Part shown: positions 10,324 to 30,414 of the stretch, piece by piece | Numbering within the stretch: the stretch's first letter is position 1 | Layout: each line of letters starts with the position of its first letter | DNA from: a virus | Virus record (IMG/VR): IMGVR_UViG_3300036861_000690 | Span: 1-34,772 of that record | Direction: 5' to 3' (one strand) | Length of the DNA stretch: 34,772 nt | Notes under the pieces: generated by a model | The model's database searches: none | What the model was told of the DNA's origin: nothing | The model's input: the letters and a program-made list of their open reading frames with translations, nothing else | Position numbers and translations under genes: made by a program

Positions 10324-10345
10324 CACGCCGTCATGACGCCCTTAC

Positions 10346-10726
10346 TCACGGCACCTTCGCCAGATTGACCACCGTGAACTGCACCTCGTGCTTGCCCGCT
10401 TTGAGGCCAGCCGCCCAGGTCCATTCCACGAGCGCCACGTGGATCTCGCTGCCCTGGGTCGGGTCGATGAGGACGTTGTCCGCTGGCAGCAGCGTGAGCG
10501 TCAGCTTGCCGGCCGCGTCCACGGCCCCGCGCCCGGTGTTCAGGATGTTCGCCGCAGTCACCCCGTTGACGATCGTGAGCGCGGCGTCTAACGCGTAGAG
10601 CGTGAGCACAAGCGTGGCCAGGCTGGCCGCCGGCAGGGCCGCGCCGGACTCGTCCGTGATCGTCGCCGTGATCCGGTAGGTCGATTTCTCGACCGCCGAC
10701 TCGCTGAGCGCCGTGCGGATCGTCAT
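10346..10726 (-). CDS. Putative tail/fibre accessory protein with Ig-like beta fold (126 aa)
   Basis: A beta-rich protein (STYRITATITDESGAALPAA, LATLVLTLYALDAALTIVNG, AGKLTLTLLPADNVLIDP, KHEVQFTVVNLAKVP). The T-D-E-S-G-A-A-L...LVLTLYA pattern resembles small Ig-like/BppU-like phage proteins that decorate tails or baseplates. No signal peptide or membrane span. The ATG at 10726 overlaps the preceding stop (TGATG). It lies between tail accessory and lysis genes, as such proteins often do. Exact role unknown. Confidence 0.55.
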   Translation of the reverse strand: MTIRTALSESAVEKSTYRITATITDESGAALPAASLATLVLTLYALDAALTIVNGVTAANILNTGRGAVDAAGKLTLTLLPADNVLIDPTQGSEIHVALVEWTWAAGLKAGKHEVQFTVVNLAKVP

Positions 10727-10935
10727 CAGCTGGTCCCTACCCCGGTCAGGGTCGGCGCGCTCCCGACGACGCTCCCGCTCGGGATGGCCATGGCGGCCGG
10801 CACCAGCGGGGATGGTTGTCCGAGGACCAGGAGGATACCGGCCAGGGCGAGGACCTGCGGCGGGGCCGCTGCCGGCGGGGTCCCCCCGGACATGCCGACG
10901 GTCCCGTCCGTCGCGATCGCGCCGAGGTCGGCCAC
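10726..10935 (-). CDS. Small Pro/Ala/Gly-rich tail-associated protein (69 aa)
   Basis: GTG start at 10935 with GGAGG 8 nt before. The product has a low-complexity Pro/Ala segment, a hydrophobic segment (QVLALAGILLVLGQPSPLVP) and ends IPSGSVVGSAPTLTG. No catalytic or metal motif. Placed between fibre-like and Ig-like tail proteins with overlap on the left, so a minor structural role is inferred. Function not recognised. Confidence 0.5.
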   Translation of the reverse strand: MADLGAIATDGTVGMSGGTPPAAAPPQVLALAGILLVLGQPSPLVPAAMAIPSGSVVGSAPTLTGVGTS

Positions 10936-10936
10936 G

Positions 10937-11092
10937 TCAGTTCCCTCCGCGGATGCGCCAGCCGAGGCCCGACTCCAGCTCGACCGACGTCAGGGCCGCG
11001 GCCTGGTCCCCGGCCACCGCGACCTCGACGACGACGTCACCATCGCCGACGCCGCGCTCCTCGACCTGGCGCTTGAAGTCGCCCCACGTCAT
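10937..11092 (-). CDS. Small hypothetical protein (51 aa)
   Basis: The ATG at 11092 overlaps the fibre-like gene's stop (TGATG), and the frame ends 2 bp before the next GTG. The product (MTWGDFKRQVEERGVGDGDV, then a beta pair VVEVAVAGDQ and SVELESGLGWRIRGGN) looks like a tiny folded alpha/beta protein, close in style to small proteins of the form W-x-D-F-K-x-x-V-E...G-V-x-D-x-D found near phage tail genes. Overlaps on both sides support coding. Confidence 0.6.
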   Translation of the reverse strand: MTWGDFKRQVEERGVGDGDVVVEVAVAGDQAAALTSVELESGLGWRIRGGN

Positions 11093-12075
11093 CAGTTCGT
11101 CTCCCACGTATCGGACGTCTCGACGACGTAGATGCCGTCCGCCGTCATCGCCGGCTTGAGGATCATGAAGGTCTTGCCGGCCAAGGTCCCGGCTCCGCTG
11201 AAGGTGTCCTGGTCATTGACGGGCGCGCTGGCGATGTGCAGCCACTGCCACAACCCGCGAAGGCGTCCCCGCACCGTGCCTTGGAGGCCCGTGTCCTCGT
11301 GCACCCAGAGCTGCGAGAGGAGGACGTTCCCATCCGTCGGGTTCGGGTACAGCATGTTGCCCTCGAGCCGGGTCGTCGACCCCTTCACGCCGTCGCCGTG
11401 CTTGCCGATGGTGCTGGTGGCGCCGACAATGTCGCCCTCGTACGATCTGGGAGTGTAGTGCCCAGCAACCAGCGTCGTCAGCGCCGCAAGGACGCTCAGG
11501 TTGTCGACCGACTCGTCCGCCTGACTGGCGTCACCCGCCGAGCGGCCGATGATGATGGCCCGGTACGGATCGGTCGCGCCCTTCAGCGAGAAGAAGTCCC
11601 CGAAGCTGAACCCGGACCATCCCATCGTCCCCAGCGGTTTCGTCCAGAGGTGGAACGTCCGCTGGTCGGCGACCATGATCCAGTCCCGGGCCGTGGCGTC
11701 AGCCGACTTGGACTTCCGGACGATGATGCCGGCCGCAAGCAGTCCGGTCGTGGGGAACGGCCCCGTCACGCCGGTGACTGCCGTTCCCGTGTTGGCCTGC
11801 GTCGCAATCTCGTTGCCGCGCAGCCGGGCCTCGCGCGCGCCGGCCGTCGCTGCCTGCGCGTTGTCATCGACGTTCAGGTAGACACCGGATCCGACCGCCG
11901 CGGAGTTGCGGTAGACGGCCAGATTCGTCCCGCTGAACGGCTTCGTCCAGCCGGCGGCCGGCTTCGCCCCGTAGCCGTTGACCAGGACCGCGTCGAGTAG
12001 AGCAATGAGCGCGCCGACGGTACCGGATAGCACTGGGGCCGACGCGTCGGAATGCTTGTAGACCGTGACCGCCAT
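11092..12075 (-). CDS. Virion-associated protein, probable tail or baseplate component (327 aa)
   Basis: Starts MAVTVYKHSDASAPVLSGTV, then a glycine-rich mixed beta protein with WTKPFSGTNLAVYR, GSGVYLNVDDNA, RDWIMVADQRTFHLWTKPLG and a C-terminal beta region ending near VVETSDTWETN. This order is typical of a conserved phage structural family placed near fibres. The precise position in the virion is not known. GGAGGG lies about 8 nt before the ATG. A terminator-like hairpin (12123-12170) lies just upstream, so the gene may need its own promoter or read-through. No clear promoter was found in the 47 bp before it. Confidence 0.65.
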   Translation of the reverse strand: MAVTVYKHSDASAPVLSGTVGALIALLDAVLVNGYGAKPAAGWTKPFSGTNLAVYRNSAAVGSGVYLNVDDNAQAATAGAREARLRGNEIATQANTGTAVTGVTGPFPTTGLLAAGIIVRKSKSADATARDWIMVADQRTFHLWTKPLGTMGWSGFSFGDFFSLKGATDPYRAIIIGRSAGDASQADESVDNLSVLAALTTLVAGHYTPRSYEGDIVGATSTIGKHGDGVKGSTTRLEGNMLYPNPTDGNVLLSQLWVHEDTGLQGTVRGRLRGLWQWLHIASAPVNDQDTFSGAGTLAGKTFMILKPAMTADGIYVVETSDTWETN

Positions 12076-12122
12076 CTCATCGCCCTCCCGGCCTGCTGTC
12101 AGGCATCAACTCGCCGCCCAAA

Positions 12123-12170
12123 AGAAAAGGGCCGGCATCGTTCGTCGCGACGATGACGACCCTTCTCTTC
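12123..12170. terminator. Terminator-like hairpin inside the late region
   Basis: The 152-bp gap between the GNAT gene and the 327-aa gene holds a long inverted repeat: AAGAAAAGGG (12123-12132) opposite CCCTTCTCTT (12161-12170) with one mismatch, a 4x4 internal loop, and CATCGT opposite ACGATG with an 8-nt loop. On the minus strand the 3' arm is T-rich (CCCTTTTCTTTT), as in an intrinsic terminator for the structural operon. It would separate the head-tail genes from the fibre/lysis genes, or attenuate read-through. No other feature is seen in the gap. Confidence 0.5.
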
Positions 12171-12227
12171 GGCTTCCGCCCCCATCGCTGGCCAGCGACG
12201 GGTGGGCGTATCGTGAATGATTATGCG

Positions 12228-12734
12228 CTAATTGCCCTCATGTCCGTAGCGACCTTTGTGGGAGCCATCCGCCTGATTGGCCCACCAGAAGAGCTGCGCC
12301 TCGGCGCCCGGGATCTCGACGCGGCCGGCGGGCCGCCAGGGCACCGTCCCGGCTTGGGCCCGGCGCAGCTGGGTGACCTGAAACGAATGGTTCGTATCGA
12401 GGACCTCCATGACGAGCCCGTCGACCGACCAACGCTCGAAGGCCAGCGTCGCCGCCCACTCCCGCACCCGCGCCGCCACCTGCTGCCGCTGCCACGTCGG
12501 CCACACGCCCATCGTGAACCACGCCCACGGCTCGACGGGGTCGCGGCGCAGCGAGACCCAGGCGACCGGATCGGCAGCGTCTCGGAATAGCCAGACGTCT
12601 TCGCCCGCCACAGGCTGGCGTGGCCAGTAGGCGCCGTAGGCCGCCCGCAGGGCCTCGCGCCCGATGGCGTCGCCGAACGCCGCCCAGAGGGCGGTGGCGT
12701 CAGCGTCGGTCAGGCTATCCACCGTGAGATTCAT
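12228..12734 (-). CDS. GNAT-family N-acetyltransferase-like protein (168 aa)
   Basis: The N-terminus (MNLTVDSLTDADATALWAAF) matches the first strand and helix of GNAT enzymes. The central region WAWFTMGVWPTWQRQQVAAR followed by VREWAATLAFERWSVDGLVM and EVLDTNHSFQ has the beta4-alpha3 layout (acetyl-CoA site, normally Q/R-x-x-G-x-G/A, here degenerate as QRQQVAA) and the later N-H-S-F in place of the common N-x-x-x. Family activity: transfer of an acyl group from acyl-CoA to an amine; substrate unknown. Last gene of the structural operon before a hairpin, overlapping the ferritin-like gene by 20 bp. It could modify a tail protein or a host target, both inference. Confidence 0.6.
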   Translation of the reverse strand: MNLTVDSLTDADATALWAAFGDAIGREALRAAYGAYWPRQPVAGEDVWLFRDAADPVAWVSLRRDPVEPWAWFTMGVWPTWQRQQVAARVREWAATLAFERWSVDGLVMEVLDTNHSFQVTQLRRAQAGTVPWRPAGRVEIPGAEAQLFWWANQADGSHKGRYGHEGN

Positions 12735-13323
12735 CTACGGCGATCTCCGCCAACTCGTGCCAGATGGGAACATGCGTCGCCTGGGAAATAGCGAGGTAGA
12801 CCCGCCGCGTCAGCTTATAGGCCGCCTCGAACGTCTTACAGAGGGCCGGGTCGTCGCGCTCGATCCGGGCGATGACTCGGCGTCCCCAGGCGACGTGGGT
12901 CTCCTCGTCCTTGACGATCTCGCGAAAGTCTTTCGCGAGCTCGGGTTCGAGTCGCTCGAAGATGCGGATCCATCCCGGGTAGTAGCGGAGCACGTTCCGC
13001 TCATTCCAGTGGACCGCGGCGAGGCAGTGGGCGAATTGCGCGCGGCCGCCCATCTTCGCCGCCAGGGTCACGTCCCGCGTCGTCAACGAGCCGAACGCCC
13101 CCAGTCCAGTCGTCGGGGCGACCCAACGCCGGGCCCAGCCGGCGCAGACCGCCGCGTGCACCAGTTCGTCTGCGGCGATCGTATCGAGCATGAACCGCCG
13201 CTCGGGGCCGGTCAGGAACGGCGAATCGCGCAGGAGCCGCATCATCGAGTTCCCAACGGTTTCGCTCTTCCCCAGCTCCTTGAGGAACCGTCCGAGCCTC
13301 TGGTACGCGCGCTGGTCGTTCAC
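12715..13323 (-). CDS. Predicted diiron ferritin-like protein (202 aa)
   Basis: All-helical sequence with two E-x-x-H motifs: DELVH (Glu53, His56) and DEETH (Glu140, His143), plus Glu21 and Glu108 (HWNERN) exactly 32 residues before each. E...ExxH...E...ExxH with equal within-pair spacing is the iron-ligand layout of ferritin-like diiron proteins (rubrerythrin, AurF and ribonucleotide-reductase-R2 types). Family roles: O2 activation, amine oxygenation, hydroxylation or iron storage; the reaction here is unknown. The GTG at 13323 overlaps the preceding TGA (GTGA). The frame is open further upstream but lies over the next gene. Flanked by two acetyltransferase-like or unknown genes, not by structural genes. 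Not recognised as a named family. Confidence 0.6.
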   Translation of the reverse strand: MNDQRAYQRLGRFLKELGKSETVGNSMMRLLRDSPFLTGPERRFMLDTIAADELVHAAVCAGWARRWVAPTTGLGAFGSLTTRDVTLAAKMGGRAQFAHCLAAVHWNERNVLRYYPGWIRIFERLEPELAKDFREIVKDEETHVAWGRRVIARIERDDPALCKTFEAAYKLTRRVYLAISQATHVPIWHELAEIAVDESHGG

Positions 13324-14345
13324 GGGAACGCTCCCGCCTGGCGGTAGGCCCGGAGGAATCCTTCGACGCCCTGCGCGAGGATCGCGTCGGCGTCCATGTG
13401 GATCTCGCGAAACGGCTGCGTCCGCTGCGCGCTCTTCGGCGTGACCGCGAGGCGCCGGTGCGTCTGGAACCGGGCACGCCCGGCGTGCTCGTCCCACTCG
13501 ACGCAGGAGTCGGGGATGAATGCCGTCCCCGTCGCGTACCCGACCGCCCGGTGCCAGGCGCAGACGCCGTACAGGAACGCGCCGTCGTCGGGCCGGCGGT
13601 CCAGCGGCGAGACGCTCGCGATGGTCGACATGGCCTGGCGGCGCTCCCGAACGACGCGGCAGAATTCGACCTGCCCGGCGACCTCGCCGATGAGGATCGT
13701 CGCGGCGTCGAGGGCGGTCCACTCATCGACGAGGCGGCGTGCCTCGTCGCGGAGGGCCGGCCGCAGGCGCCACCACCTGGCCAGCCACGCGTCGAGCTGG
13801 CCGAGGTCGGCGTCCGGGAGCTCGCGCAGGACGTGGTCGCCGTGGCGGAACGCCCAGCCCGGGCCGGCCGAACGCCGGGCGGGCCAGCCGGTGCAGGCGG
13901 CCAGCGCGCGCTCGACGTCGTAGGCGATCACCAGGAACTTCCCGCTGACGGTGCGGCCGATCTCCTCGGCCCCGTACTCCGTGCGCAGCGTCTCCACCCA
14001 CTCGAGCAGGTCGGCGCGGGGACGGCTGGTGATCCGGCCCACCCCCACCTCGCGGAGCGCCTCCAGGACCGGCCGCCACGCCTCCCGCCAGAACCGGCGC
14101 GGCCGCGTCACCAGGTGCGCCATGAACCCCGAGCGCGCGATCTGCCCCTCCGGGTCGAGGAACAGGCAGTCGTACTGCAGCGGCCGTCCGCGGAACTCCA
14201 GCACCAGCGGCCACGCGGACGGTGTGCCCCACCAGGTCCGGACGACCGCCTCCGGGTTTGCATAGATCTCTGCGGCCTTCACGGCCGCCGTCCACCCGGC
14301 CAGGTCGGCCGACTCCATGAGGCGGAGGCGGAGGCCGGGCCGCAT
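13320..14345 (-). CDS. Uncharacterised protein, possibly two degenerate acyltransferase-like domains (341 aa)
   Basis: The N-terminal half (about 1-150) begins RLRLMESADLAGWTAAVKAA and includes LVLEFRGRPLQYDCLF and RFWREAWRPVLEALREVGVG, reading like a GNAT fold without a clear acetyl-CoA loop. The C-terminal half includes TILIGEVAGQVEFCRVVRER and DDGAFLYGVCAWHRAVGYAT, faintly like the last part of FemAB/CelD-type acyltransferases. Both are weak, inferred only from pattern. No membrane span or signal. The ATG at 14345 has a poor ribosome site. The stop overlaps the ferritin-like start, which argues for co-translation and a shared process. Confidence 0.45.
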   Translation of the reverse strand: MRPGLRLRLMESADLAGWTAAVKAAEIYANPEAVVRTWWGTPSAWPLVLEFRGRPLQYDCLFLDPEGQIARSGFMAHLVTRPRRFWREAWRPVLEALREVGVGRITSRPRADLLEWVETLRTEYGAEEIGRTVSGKFLVIAYDVERALAACTGWPARRSAGPGWAFRHGDHVLRELPDADLGQLDAWLARWWRLRPALRDEARRLVDEWTALDAATILIGEVAGQVEFCRVVRERRQAMSTIASVSPLDRRPDDGAFLYGVCAWHRAVGYATGTAFIPDSCVEWDEHAGRARFQTHRRLAVTPKSAQRTQPFREIHMDADAILAQGVEGFLRAYRQAGAFP

Positions 14346-14411: not shown

Positions 14412-14663
14412 TCAGTCGCCATCGTTCGCGACCTCCCCGCAGTGCTCCCGCACCAGGCGGACGAGCACCTCGCCGAGCGCGCCGGTCGGTTTGGCGGCGA
14501 GCCGGTGATACTCGTCCGTCACGGCCCGCCAGTCCGCCGCCGTCGCCGGGGCCCGTCCCATGCCGGCCTCGACCTTCGAGCACGCGAGCGCCCAGAGCTT
14601 GGCGAGTGCCGGCTCCTCCGGAACCGCGAGGAAGACGCCCGGCTTGTCGGCGAGCTCGATCAC
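14412..14663 (-). CDS. Small helical protein (83 aa)
   Basis: GTG start at 14663 overlapping the previous TGA (GTGA). The product (MIELADKPGVFLAVPEEPAL, LAKLWALACSKVEAGMGRAP, LGEVLVRLVREHCGEVANDG) is soluble and mainly helical. No motif recognised. It lies between the baseplate-like protein and the 341-aa gene, with a 66-bp gap downstream in which nothing is seen. Could be a tail assembly factor or part of the following non-structural module. Confidence 0.5.
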   Translation of the reverse strand: MIELADKPGVFLAVPEEPALAKLWALACSKVEAGMGRAPATAADWRAVTDEYHRLAAKPTGALGEVLVRLVREHCGEVANDGD

Positions 14664-15862
14664 GAGATGCTCTCCACGTAGTCGATCGTGAGGGCCTTCT
14701 GGTCGATGTGCAGCCCGCTCTCGGCCAGGCTGCCGCCAGGACAGCTCGCGTTGTTACACATGTCGGGGTTCAGGCCCGGACACGGGTCGGCCTGCTGCCC
14801 GGCGGAATCGAAAAAGGTCTTCACGTTGTACTGGTCCGCGGCCCGGTTCGGATCGCAGAACACCGACCAGAAGTCTTCGGCGGGCAGCCCCGGGTGCACG
14901 TCGCTCGCCTGGCAGTCTGACGTCGCGTACTGCGCGACGGACCCTCGCGTCTGGGGCCACGTCGTCCCCGGCACCGGCACCCAGCCCGTGCTCGGATCGC
15001 CGCCGGTGCCCGGCGCGTCGACCGCGCCCACCGTCTTGAACTCCTGTCGGTAGGTGACCGACCCCGTGTAGGACCGATTCACAAAGCTCTGCGGCCCGGG
15101 CCCGCAGATGATGTCCTTGCCGCCGCCTTGGGGTACCTGCGTGTTGAGCAGGCAGTGCCACAGCCGGTGGGTCAGGTGCTTGAGCCCGGTGCGGAACTGG
15201 CGCGTCGACGCCGCTGTCGTCACGGTGACCGAGGACCCGAACGGGACGGCGACGTCCGTCGTGTTCAGCGACGAGATCCCCGGCACGAGCACGAGCAGCT
15301 GGCCCGTCGGCGCGGCCGAGGACTCGATGGCGCCAGTCCACAGCAGCACGTACTCGATGTGCCCCCCGGCCAGGAAGTGGGGGATCACGTCGACGATTTC
15401 GAACAAGTCGCGGTCGAGCCCCCGCTGCCCGGTCAAGGGGTTCTCCATGGCGGCCGAGCTGACGCGCACGCGATCCGCGGGCTCCCCCATGTGGCGCCGG
15501 AAGGTCGTCCGCAGCCGCAGAATGTGGGGCCCGAAGCCATACCGCTGGAGAATCTGCAGCGCGTACTCGTCCATCAGGGCCACGCCGTTCTGCGTCGTGC
15601 GTACCCCGCGGGCCTCCAGCCGCAGCGTGGGCTGGGCCAGGTACCGGTCGACGCTGGCCTGGGCCTCGTAGAGCTGCCGCCGGCCGAAGGCATTGGACGC
15701 CAGCCCGATGACGTTCCAATCGAACGAGATCGCCACCTTGTTGAAGATGGTCCGGTCCCTGATCCACTCGGCCATCGGCAGGCCCGTCTGCGGGTCCGCC
15801 AGGATGTCGGCGTCGCCGATCGAGGGATCGAAAGGCGCATAGATCGTCTGCCCCGTCATCAT
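14660..15862 (-). CDS. Virion structural protein, probable tail/baseplate component (400 aa)
   Basis: Starts MMTGQTIYAPFDPSIGDADI. A central region (DWNVIGLASNAFGRRQLYEA, LYEAQASVDRYLAQPTLRLE, LDRDLFEIVDVIPHFLAGGH) looks like a mixed alpha/beta tail-associated domain. The C-terminal about 150 residues are Cys- and Gly/Pro-rich (DICGPG..., CNNASCPGG), suggesting a disulphide- or metal-stabilised tip. ATG at 15862 overlaps the preceding TGA (ATGA); a second ATG at 15859 is also possible. A longer upstream frame would overlap the 117-aa gene completely at its end and is not favoured. Family not identified; the call rests on position after fibre genes. Confidence 0.5.
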   Translation of the reverse strand: MMTGQTIYAPFDPSIGDADILADPQTGLPMAEWIRDRTIFNKVAISFDWNVIGLASNAFGRRQLYEAQASVDRYLAQPTLRLEARGVRTTQNGVALMDEYALQILQRYGFGPHILRLRTTFRRHMGEPADRVRVSSAAMENPLTGQRGLDRDLFEIVDVIPHFLAGGHIEYVLLWTGAIESSAAPTGQLLVLVPGISSLNTTDVAVPFGSSVTVTTAASTRQFRTGLKHLTHRLWHCLLNTQVPQGGGKDIICGPGPQSFVNRSYTGSVTYRQEFKTVGAVDAPGTGGDPSTGWVPVPGTTWPQTRGSVAQYATSDCQASDVHPGLPAEDFWSVFCDPNRAADQYNVKTFFDSAGQQADPCPGLNPDMCNNASCPGGSLAESGLHIDQKALTIDYVESIS

Positions 15863-16212
15863 GAGAGCTGGTTCCAGATCGCCAGCCACTCGTCGCGCGC
15901 CTGCTGGATCTCTGCGGCCGTCGGCGCGCGGCCGAGGACCCGATTCAGGACCCAGAGCGTCGTGACCCGAATGGCTTTGACGGCCTGTTCGCGCGTGGCG
16001 AGCATCGCCCGCTGCGCGAGATCATAGGCGTCGAGTTCGGCCTGGCTGCGGAGCTGGCGCCCCGGCCCCTTGTGCAGCCGCACGTCCGGGTGCGGATCGG
16101 CATCGGGGAACTCATCGAGCGCCTCGGTCGCGGCGTCGAAGTCGGGGTCGTAGAACCCGCCCCGGAGGTATTGCCCATCGCTCAGCCGAAAGATCCATCG
16201 TGAAATCGCCAT
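15859..16212 (-). CDS. Hypothetical tail-region protein (117 aa)
   Basis: ATG at 16212 (MAISRWIFRLSDGQYLRGGF), 4 bp after the fibre gene's stop, with GGGAG about 10 nt before. The N-terminal beta segment RLSDGQYLRGGFYDPDFDAA is followed by helices (ELDAYDLAQRAMLATREQAV, KAIRVTTLWVLNRVLGRAPT). The form, short beta start plus helical tail with W-L-A-I-W at the end, resembles small fibre-associated or chaperone proteins that sit directly after a fibre gene. That placement is the only functional hint. Confidence 0.5.
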   Translation of the reverse strand: MAISRWIFRLSDGQYLRGGFYDPDFDAATEALDEFPDADPHPDVRLHKGPGRQLRSQAELDAYDLAQRAMLATREQAVKAIRVTTLWVLNRVLGRAPTAAEIQQARDEWLAIWNQLS

Positions 16213-27004: not shown

Positions 27005-29512
27005 CTACCCGACGACCACGTTCTTACAAGCCCCACGGAAGTCGACCAGATCGCCGCCATAGATGTGCCGGATCTTGTACTGGACGCGATCGTTCGTGAA
27101 CAGCGTCCCCTGCGTGGGCAGGTCGGCCAGGAGCAGCTCGGGCTCCTCGCGGCCGTCCAGGAAGTCCACCTGGGTCGACTCGCGGCCGCCGCTGGCCGGC
27201 TCGATGTGGATGCCCCAGTCCGTCACGTCGGTGAACAGCACGCCGACGTTGATGCGCTCGCCGCCGTTGGGCGCATCGGGATCCCCGAAGAGGCCGAAGA
27301 CCTGGTTCGTGGTGCCGGCGCCGAACTCGCGGGCGATGTTCAGCCGGCGGGCGACCGACCAGAGGGCGCTTGGCACGTCCAGCCAGAGGCTGCTCAGGGG
27401 CGAGGGCCCCAGCTTCTTCGCGGAGCCCGGCTCGGTCTGATCGAAGAGCTGCACGATCTTGGCGAAGACCTCGGCCGCCCCGGTGGCGTCCGCAGTGAGC
27501 GCCACGGTGCCGGTGTTGCCGTGGGCCGCGTTGAACCAGGCGACCGCATCGACGTCGTAGGTCGCCCCGGCCCCGTTCCAGAAGGTCCAGATGAACTGCG
27601 CCAGCGTCCGCCGCGCGGCGCGGCCCAACCGGTCGACCATCTCCTGGATCGCCCGGAGATCGTCGTTCTTGATCGTCTCGAGCGTGATCGAGAGCAAGTT
27701 GCCACGCTTGGTCACGGCATAGCTGACCTTGTCGTCGGTGACGTTCGTCACGTCGACGTAGGCCGCGTCCTGGGCCACGGTGGCCAGATCCGCGAAGTAG
27801 CCCATGATCACCTTCTCGCGGTTCCGGAAGTCCACGGCGGAGCCGAACCGCGAGATGGTGCGCTCGTTGTACTGCACCTCGGCGTACCGCATCAGCATCG
27901 AGCGGTAGAGCGTGTTGCCGAGGATATCGGCCCAGTCGGTCGAGAGTAGCGCCGCTTCCGAGACACGCTGGCCTTTCGGCGCCCGGCCGGTCACGTCCGT
28001 GTCGCCGGTGACGTAGGCGTAGAAGTCCTTGATGCTCCGGAAGCGCAGCCCGGGATCCTTGGCCGCCTCCGCCTGGGGCTTGAGATCCTCCTGGATGCGC
28101 GCGAGGGTCTGGGGCGTGAAGTGCGAGGACTCCAGCGCCTTGGCGATCTTCGTGGGCGTCGCGTCGAACAGGGCGTCGAGGGCGGCCTGGACCTTGTCGC
28201 GGGGCGCCACCACGACGCGCGCCGCATCGCCGAAGCCCTTCAGATCGCCGGATTCGGCGACCTTCCCCCAGGCCTCGACTTCCGCCTTGACGACGTCGGC
28301 GATCTCCTTGGCTTCGGCGGCCCGGCCCGCGAACTGGGCGGTCACCTTGGCCTTGATCGGCTCCGGCAGCTTGGTCCCCGCCAGCGCCTCCTTCACGCGC
28401 GCCTGGGTCGCCTGCTCGGCCATCTCCCGCTCGAGCTTCTTGGCCCACTCCGGCATCTCGGCCGGCGCGGCCTCCTTGACGACGACCGGCTTCAGGGCCT
28501 CCCGGACGAGGGCCTTCAGCTGATCCTCGGTCAAGGTCTCGACGACCTTCCCCTCGAGCAGCTGGGGCCGGTGCTCTCTGATGAGCGCGATGAGTTCGTC
28601 TCGTTTCATGACCTCGCCCTCCTCTGGAATGAGCAACGGCCCCGCCGTCGCCCGGATGAAGCGCCCGTCTGCCGACGGCGCCGTGACGATGTCCACGCTG
28701 AAGAGGCGCTTGATCTCCTTGATCGCCTTCGCCGCCCCTTCCCGCAGCTGCACCGGCACGTAGCCGGCCAGCGTATCGACCGAGAGTCCGAGCACTTTGT
28801 CGACGACGCCCCGTCGGGCGAGGTCGAGGAGCTTCGTCTTGAGCCAGCCCGCATCTTCGTGGAGATGGAGATCGGCATACACGCCGTCGGCGCCGATCCG
28901 AGGATTCTGGACATCCCCCACCACGTTCCGCGTCACCGCCCCCTTCGCCGCGAGGACGGCTTCCTCGTTGGCGTGCGCGGTCGCGCCGTTCTGGTACACG
29001 TAGACGCCGACCGGCGCGTTGGTCAGATGCGGCAGTAGGGCCTGGCCGCTGGCCTCATCCCAGAACCAGCCGTTTTGCGAGCGCCCGAACTTGAGGACCC
29101 GCACTTCCCAGACCGCGCCACTCTCCTCGAGTGCGCGACCGAAGCCGCAGACCTCGCCCGCCTCCTGGTACTCGACCTTGACCTCCGCGGGGTCCTCGAA
29201 CGTGATCGCCTCGCTATCGAGCGTATAGGCGACCCGATAGAAGGTGGTGCCATTGCGGACGATGATCGCGTCGTCGAAGACGTCCTCGATGTACCAGCAC
29301 AGGGGCTCGTCGTCGGGCTGCATCGAGTACCAGGCGGCCCGCACGATGTCGGCGCGCCCTTCCAGGCTGTCGGCGCTGATCGTCTCCTTGGCCTTGAAGT
29401 ACCGGACCTGGCGCTCGCGCTTCTCGGCGGCCTCCTTGGTCTCGAACTCGCCGAGCTTCTTCTTGCCGTCGCGGGCGTAGAGGACGTATTTGCCCCCTTC
29501 ATGTTTGATCAT
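27005..29512 (-). CDS. Prohead protease-scaffold-major capsid fusion (835 aa)
   Basis: One frame holds all three head-morphogenesis functions. Residues 1-290: N-terminal MIKHEGGKYVLYARDGKKKL, then a Mu-protease-like domain with ADLHLHED, VDKVLGLSVDTLAGYVPVQL and LFSVDIVTAPSADGRFI; candidate nucleophile Ser in GLSVD and candidate His in LHLHED. Residues 302-490: charged, helical scaffold-like (KRDELIALIREHRPQLLEGK, TLTEDQLKALVREALKP). Residues about 490-835: HK97-fold capsid of the Mu GpT type (LRFRSIKDFYAYVTGDTDVT, LLSTDWADILGNTLYRSMLM, KRGNLLSITLETIKNDDLRA). ATG at 29512 with AGGAGG 9 nt before and an ATGA overlap. A good internal start at 28609 (Met302) would give scaffold-capsid alone. Capsid release by the protease is inferred. 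Confidence 0.8.
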   Translation of the reverse strand: MIKHEGGKYVLYARDGKKKLGEFETKEAAEKRERQVRYFKAKETISADSLEGRADIVRAAWYSMQPDDEPLCWYIEDVFDDAIIVRNGTTFYRVAYTLDSEAITFEDPAEVKVEYQEAGEVCGFGRALEESGAVWEVRVLKFGRSQNGWFWDEASGQALLPHLTNAPVGVYVYQNGATAHANEEAVLAAKGAVTRNVVGDVQNPRIGADGVYADLHLHEDAGWLKTKLLDLARRGVVDKVLGLSVDTLAGYVPVQLREGAAKAIKEIKRLFSVDIVTAPSADGRFIRATAGPLLIPEEGEVMKRDELIALIREHRPQLLEGKVVETLTEDQLKALVREALKPVVVKEAAPAEMPEWAKKLEREMAEQATQARVKEALAGTKLPEPIKAKVTAQFAGRAAEAKEIADVVKAEVEAWGKVAESGDLKGFGDAARVVVAPRDKVQAALDALFDATPTKIAKALESSHFTPQTLARIQEDLKPQAEAAKDPGLRFRSIKDFYAYVTGDTDVTGRAPKGQRVSEAALLSTDWADILGNTLYRSMLMRYAEVQYNERTISRFGSAVDFRNREKVIMGYFADLATVAQDAAYVDVTNVTDDKVSYAVTKRGNLLSITLETIKNDDLRAIQEMVDRLGRAARRTLAQFIWTFWNGAGATYDVDAVAWFNAAHGNTGTVALTADATGAAEVFAKIVQLFDQTEPGSAKKLGPSPLSSLWLDVPSALWSVARRLNIAREFGAGTTNQVFGLFGDPDAPNGGERINVGVLFTDVTDWGIHIEPASGGRESTQVDFLDGREEPELLLADLPTQGTLFTNDRVQYKIRHIYGGDLVDFRGACKNVVVG
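28607..28625 (-). promoter_or_regulatory. Internal ribosome binding site and start codon for scaffold-capsid
   Basis: Within the fusion gene, on the minus strand, AGAGGAGGG (28625-28617) is followed after 7 nt by ATG (28609-28607) encoding Met302. It is one of the strongest Shine-Dalgarno matches in the window and lies exactly at the border between the protease and scaffold regions. It would yield a 534-aa scaffold-capsid product in excess over the full-length protein, as nested scaffold genes do in lambda. It is inferred from sequence only. Confidence 0.55.
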
Positions 29513-30414
29513 GCTGCTGCGGCCTCCTGACGCCGCCGAACGAAGGCCTCGTCCTCCCGCCGCGCCGCCTGGATCGCCTCCCGCCATTCCTCACGGAACG
29601 GCACGCTCTGACAGCCACAGAGGATCGTCGAGGCCGGACTCGCGCTCGGGTCGCGGGGAAACATCAGCGCCTCATACGGCATCCCGAGCGCCGGCCGCAC
29701 GCGAAAGGCCTCGCCCACCTCCCGCACTTGGCCATCGGCTTCGACGTGCCCGAGCCGACGATAGGGTCCGGTATTGCCCGAGTGCCGCCATTCCTTGCGC
29801 AGGTCCGGGACCAGGCGCTGGGCCTCCTCGAGGCCGGCCTGGGTGGCGATCGCCTGGATCCGGCCGAGCTCCGTGCGCGTGATGGCTTCGGCCCGCGTGG
29901 CCAGGGAGCCAAAGGGGCCCGGGTCCTGGAGGCGCCCGCCGACACGCTGCAGGACCTCGGGCACGCTCTCGCCGCGGAGGATGCCCAGCCGGAGGTCGGC
30001 GGAAATCCGTCCGATCGTCTCGGCGGTGGCGTTCGTGATGAGGAGCGCCTGGAAGGCCCGGGCGGCCTCGAACTGGCGGCGTCCGACCTGCGGGATCGCG
30101 AAGGTGATGCCGGATTCGAGCAGCGGGCGACCGGCGAGGGCCTGACCGGCCTCGAAGAGGACCTCCTGGGGGGTCCGCAGCGTCCCCTGGTAGCGCTCGA
30201 CGAAGCGCGCCATGACGTCCTGAATCCGACGCTCGAGCTCGCGCAATCGGTATGCCTGGAACCCATCCGGGGCCGCCGCGGCGATCTCACCCAGGACCTG
30301 AACGCGGGCCGCCTCGAGGTCCTGCAACATCGTGGGCACGACCACATCGGGCAGGCGGTCGATCTGGGAGAGAATCTCCGCCACGGCCGCCACAAAGCGT
30401 TCCTGGGGAGTCAT
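29509..30414 (-). CDS. MuF-like minor head protein (301 aa)
   Basis: ATG at 30414 overlaps the preceding TGA (ATGA). The N-terminal two-thirds are helical (VAEILSQIDRLPDVVVPTML, RELERRIQDVMARFVERYQG). The C-terminal part has RAEAITRTELGRIQAIATQA, WRHSGNTGPYRRLGHVEADG and STILCGCQSVPFREEW, the conserved R-T-E...W-x-x-S...H-x-x-x-x-G...P...C-x-C order of phage Mu gpF/SPP1 gp7 head-morphogenesis proteins. It likely acts at the portal vertex and may be ejected with DNA. Followed by the capsid fusion. Confidence 0.85.
   Translation of the reverse strand: MTPQERFVAAVAEILSQIDRLPDVVVPTMLQDLEAARVQVLGEIAAAAPDGFQAYRLRELERRIQDVMARFVERYQGTLRTPQEVLFEAGQALAGRPLLESGITFAIPQVGRRQFEAARAFQALLITNATAETIGRISADLRLGILRGESVPEVLQRVGGRLQDPGPFGSLATRAEAITRTELGRIQAIATQAGLEEAQRLVPDLRKEWRHSGNTGPYRRLGHVEADGQVREVGEAFRVRPALGMPYEALMFPRDPSASPASTILCGCQSVPFREEWREAIQAARREDEAFVRRRQEAAAA

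Follow-up and report, generated by a model that had tools for sequence, protein, structure and literature searches.

What does a protein with a putative diiron site do among the tail genes of a phage? This question is raised by a gene in an IMG/VR virus record of 34,772 bases with 68% GC, which was analyzed over its whole length and is called the window here. The window encodes a portal, a protease-capsid fusion, a tape measure protein, tail genes, an endolysin, a spanin, a RecE/Cas4-type exonuclease and an integrase, and most of its genes lie on the minus strand. A plasmid search with the integrase gave no match. Capsid and head maturation protease (positions 27005-29587) are apparently joined in one 860-aa protein, with Phage_capsid_4 at the C-terminus and protease PHROGs matching across the whole. 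The initial annotation had described a 202-aa open reading frame at 12715-13323 without assigning a strand. This reading frame exists on the minus strand, with a GTG start codon at 13323 and the stop codon at 12715; the plus-strand reading of the same interval is in a different frame. Its GTG overlaps the stop codon of the 341-aa upstream gene in the sequence GTGA. As the GC content at the three codon positions (0.67/0.47/0.85) is similar to that of the neighboring genes, the reading frame appears to be a real gene. Its placement inside a structural operon is supported, and tail genes lie on both sides. The features of the region are listed in Table 1.

Table 1. Features of the diiron gene and its surroundings in the window
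Feature	Position	Strand	Basis
Ferritin-like diiron protein (predicted), 202 aa, GTG start	12715..13323	-	Ligand motifs, L112 relative, AF2, Foldseek
Glu21 codon, first ligand, predicted helix A	13261..13263	-	Position computed; kept in L112
D52-E53-x-x-H56, ExxH motif, predicted helix B	13156..13170	-	Pattern match ending at 13170; EExxH in L112
Glu108 codon in VHWNE, predicted helix C	13000..13002	-	Position computed; VHWNE invariant (window and L112)
D139-E140-x-x-H143, ExxH motif, predicted helix D	12895..12909	-	Pattern match; EExxHVAW in L112
Upstream cassette gene, 341 aa, GNAT-like by eye only	13320..14345	-	35% identity to L112:12214-13533
Downstream cassette gene, 168 aa, GNAT acetyltransferase family	12228..12734	-	32% identity to L112:14090-14626
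Tail protein, 409 aa, upstream side of slot	14660..15889	-	Homologous to tail-protein parts in L108, L110, L111, L112, G001
Tail assembly protein, downstream side of slot	11092..12075	-	phrog_9600, E 2.5e-51; 98.8% identical in G050/L108
Strong intrinsic-terminator-like hairpin after cassette	12108..12170	-	Fold energy; shared with cassette-less L108

The diiron site had been read from the residues Glu21, Glu53-x-x-His56, Glu108 and Glu140-x-x-His143, with a distance of 32 residues between the single Glu and the ExxH motif in both halves. We checked each residue and found all six present and the spacing as described. The protein has the two half-sites of ferritin-like diiron-carboxylate proteins, each with one Glu/Asp and one ExxH, and both are conserved in its relative on contig L112. 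When the protein's own letters were shuffled 100,000 times, the exact six-residue layout never occurred, an equal-spacing layout (26 to 37 residues) occurred 100 times (0.1%), and a flexible layout occurred 598 times (0.6%). In the six-frame reading frames of at least 120 aa from the loci then collected, a looser motif was found in 95 of 4420, compared to 94 in shuffles, which is the chance level. The motif alone is therefore no proof of function, and independent evidence was needed. The motif of the window protein stands above chance because the six residues are kept in a relative of 37% identity, because a bundle is predicted, and because weak matches to diiron families were obtained.

The relative, encoded at L112:13530-14120 on a viral contig (phmmer E 1e-32), was reached by an alignment of a neighboring tail protein, which led to six loci including L112. 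All six ligands (E21, E53, H56, E108, E140 and H143) are kept in this protein. As 8 of the 15 Glu and 4 of the 7 His residues are conserved overall, the chance that all six ligands fall among conserved Glu and His residues is approximately 0.051 x 0.286 = 0.015. His99 and His105 are conserved as well. The initial annotation had named homologues lacking the Glu/His residues as evidence against a diiron enzyme, and the single relative is of the opposite kind. An alignment of the capsid protein with that of Microcystis phage Mae-JY22 led to 80 loci; the records searched from among those behind these loci, 50 when Mae-JY22 is counted, contained no homologue of the diiron protein. Single-protein scans of viral contigs and genome contigs, as well as scans of plasmids, revealed no relative, and the phage records gave weak unrelated matches only. 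Scans with two-member alignments returned the same L112 contig only and nothing from genome contigs. Apart from noise, a search with the DNA pattern DExxH...DExxHV found nothing but an unrelated protein of a large phage and an AurF-like family. The members of this AurF-like or DUF455-like family are 303-aa proteins with two DExxH motifs (L089:846-1754, L094:135-1043 and L104:2743-3651; 96-97% mutual identity) and are likewise encoded on viral contigs; a profile comparison testing their kinship with the diiron protein was not significant.

Structure prediction with AlphaFold2 (AF2) from the two available sequences yielded a helical bundle with a pLDDT of 76 and a pTM of 0.74. Only one of five models converged, the others reaching 43-52, and the alignment was minimal because only two family members are known. 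From the single sequence, the prediction reached a pLDDT of 54, and neither this model nor a Foldseek search with it was informative. In the converged model, long helices span residues 2-32, 39-67, 93-125 and 127-157, and segment 68-92 forms a crossover as in ferritin-like proteins. The ligands lie near mid-helix, at 0.43-0.63 of helix length, with convergence judged by helix position. The model is, at moderate confidence, a four-helix bundle carrying the ligands on helices A to D. Foldseek against the PDB ranked R2lox first (probability up to 1.00, TM up to 0.71), followed by R2/R2F, COQ7, aldehyde-deformylating oxygenase and a desaturase. The matches listed with a probability of at least 0.9 were mostly diiron ferritin-like enzymes, together with a few heme-oxygenase-fold and uncharacterized chains. 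As all E-values were above 0.1, these matches support the fold but do not prove it. The better matches in a viral structure library were mainly ribonucleotide reductase (RNR) small subunits and one Dps. The AlphaFold and Foldseek check proposed in the initial annotation thus gave a bundle, diiron matches and mid-helix ligands, though from one of five models and with E-values above 0.1. A ferritin-like fold with a two-metal site is well supported by prediction for the 202-aa protein.

In the family libraries (Pfam, PHROG, NCBIfam and PDB), all matches were below threshold, and most of them were to diiron ferritin-like families. DUF455 (PF04305) reached an E-value of 0.0019 and 18.2 bits, short of its gathering score of 34.3, and COQ7 (PF03232) an E-value of 0.12 and 12.4 bits compared to a gathering score of 23.5. 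The initial annotation had pointed to the rubrerythrin, AurF and R2 families; weak matches to RNR R2 (E 0.047), R2lox (E 0.044) and symerythrin, the top ferritin-like PDB sequence match (E 0.16-0.3), were indeed obtained, but none of them was significant. Unrelated weak matches to Pterin_4a, TPR_17, DUF2300 and Dixin appeared as well. No ferritin or Dps profile of Pfam or PHROGs matched at E<1.

The diiron gene is the middle one of three genes on the minus strand, a 341-aa GNAT-like gene, the diiron gene and a GNAT gene, and the same order is found in L112. It shares four bases with the 341-aa gene and 20 with the 168-aa gene; the four-base overlap is present in L112, too. Its neighbors had been called acetyltransferase-like, which holds for the downstream gene and by eye only for the upstream one, whose product had no match in Pfam, PHROG, NCBIfam or PDB. 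The 168-aa protein itself has a weak PF00583 match below the cut-off and is assigned to the GNAT family because its L112 homologue passes (E 3.6e-8, 34.1 bits compared to a cut-off of 20.7). The usual acetyl-CoA loop of GNAT proteins is Q/RxxGxG/A. The corresponding sequence is QRQQVA in the window protein and QAKGYR in L112, so that acylation by the window protein may be weak or absent. None of the cassette proteins matched a defense-system family. Beside the L112 cassette lies a gene for a methyltransferase and MptE-like fusion (L112:14943-16379; PF13649 and PF01973), another possible tailoring enzyme.

Comparison with related phages located the cassette in a variable position. The window and L108 share 97.4% identity over 11092-12183, and this identity stops at 12183. 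At the position of the cassette L108 encodes a 114-aa protein with a weak DUF7622 match, and L110, L111 and G001 also lack the cassette, which is therefore accessory and sits in a swappable slot with the tail-tip genes on one side and the terminator on the other. The hairpin region at this border has a fold energy of -71.3 kcal/mol (z -4.9), and its long stem ends in UUUUCUUUU; a simple terminator scan of the minus strand did not flag it. Positions 10342-12183 match L108:13646-15338 with 91-97% DNA identity in two stretches, the phages being otherwise divergent. The sharp end of identity beside the cassette appears to reflect a recent module exchange between the window phage and L108.

The best explanation of the locus, to which we assign a probability of about 0.6, is that the 202-aa protein is a catalytic diiron or Mn/Fe protein with a tailoring role in a late accessory cassette. 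With its L112 relative it would form a new small family of such proteins. The two full half-sites of E+ExxH speak for catalysis by a diiron or Mn/Fe protein rather than for an iron store. The six ligands would hold two metals, Fe/Fe or Mn/Fe, and the protein would most likely be an oxidase or oxygenase that activates O2 or peroxide. Its synthesis is presumably late, as suggested by the operon position, and translationally coupled within the three-gene cassette. In the likeliest role, tailoring, the diiron protein would oxidize and the GNAT protein acylate, probably in this order, an amine- or acyl-bearing target such as a tail or fiber side chain, a component of the host envelope or a small host metabolite. 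More specifically, the cassette, as a diiron oxygenase with acyltransferases, could be dedicated to modifying the phage's own tail or fiber proteins, or else the surface of the host, while virions are assembled; this proposal is a tentative and rather doubtful one. The initial annotation's term of a predicted enzyme is reasonable, whereas the roles suggested there (modification of a virion or host component, iron management, or an ejected enzyme) are hypothetical.

Other functions of a ferritin-like protein were weighed against catalytic tailoring. A peroxide-handling protein of the rubrerythrin, symerythrin or catalase type, directed against oxidative stress late in infection, would fit symerythrin as the top ferritin-like PDB match and the phage Mn-catalases and Dps proteins reported in PMC8008677. 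As the symerythrin matches are insignificant, a rubredoxin domain is absent and a GNAT cassette does not suggest stress defense, we consider this function unlikely. Alternatively, the protein could lack catalytic activity and serve the tail module as a structural component or chaperone, having kept the ferritin-like fold and perhaps a stabilizing metal. The gene is surrounded by tail genes and has no counterpart in closely related phages, and structural GNAT-like proteins are possible in phages, T7 gp13 being an example. However, all six ligands are kept at 37% identity and the relatives make tails without the diiron protein, and a structural role is also improbable.

Iron storage or detoxification by a ferritin or Dps-type protein, protecting DNA or holding iron during infection, would agree with the predicted fold and with the Dps-like ferritins that phages carry according to PMC8008677. 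The protein has two complete ExxH motifs and no ferritin or Dps family match, however, and Dps came up in the fold comparison alone, as a weaker match. In the ferroxidase site of ferritins, the histidine of the second ExxH is normally absent. A divergent RNR small subunit is suggested by the weak R2 and R2lox matches and by the class O subunits of cyanophages, which are short (240 aa on average) and have E/D+ExxH motifs (PMC9531940). On the other side, no large subunit was found in the window, G053 or G050 (11 of the 14 control genomes were positive), the neighbors are tail and GNAT genes, and the position of the R2 radical Tyr, four residues after the His of the first ExxH, is Cys60 in the window protein and Met in L112. 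Some R2 classes likewise have no radical Tyr at this position. The missing large subunit and the missing ferritin or Dps match disfavor both of these roles, so that iron storage is quite unlikely and an RNR subunit most improbable.

Among known systems, R2lox and R2 resemble the window protein most, with a bundle carrying one Glu/Asp and one ExxH per half and the best fold matches. They are, however, approximately 285-350 aa long, compared to about 200 aa for the window protein, and the sequence similarity is not significant; R2 further has a radical Tyr at His+4 and a large partner subunit, neither of which was found here. The diiron families DUF455 and COQ7 share the weak profile matches, but both scores stay below the gathering cut-offs. 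Phage-borne proteins of the ferritin-like superfamily have been described in Gratiaviridae phages (Dps and Mn-catalase; PMC8008677) and in cyanophages (the class O RNR subunit; PMC9531940), and in the available parts of these two papers none is described in such a GNAT cassette. Those proteins belong to described families, whereas the window protein, encoded in the tail region, stays below the cut-offs of Pfam and NCBIfam and matches nothing in PHROGs significantly. Should it prove catalytic, the phages of its group would perform oxygen chemistry on some substrate late in infection. Compared to the known phage Dps, catalase and RNR proteins, its further novelty is the position of the diiron gene within a swappable GNAT cassette.
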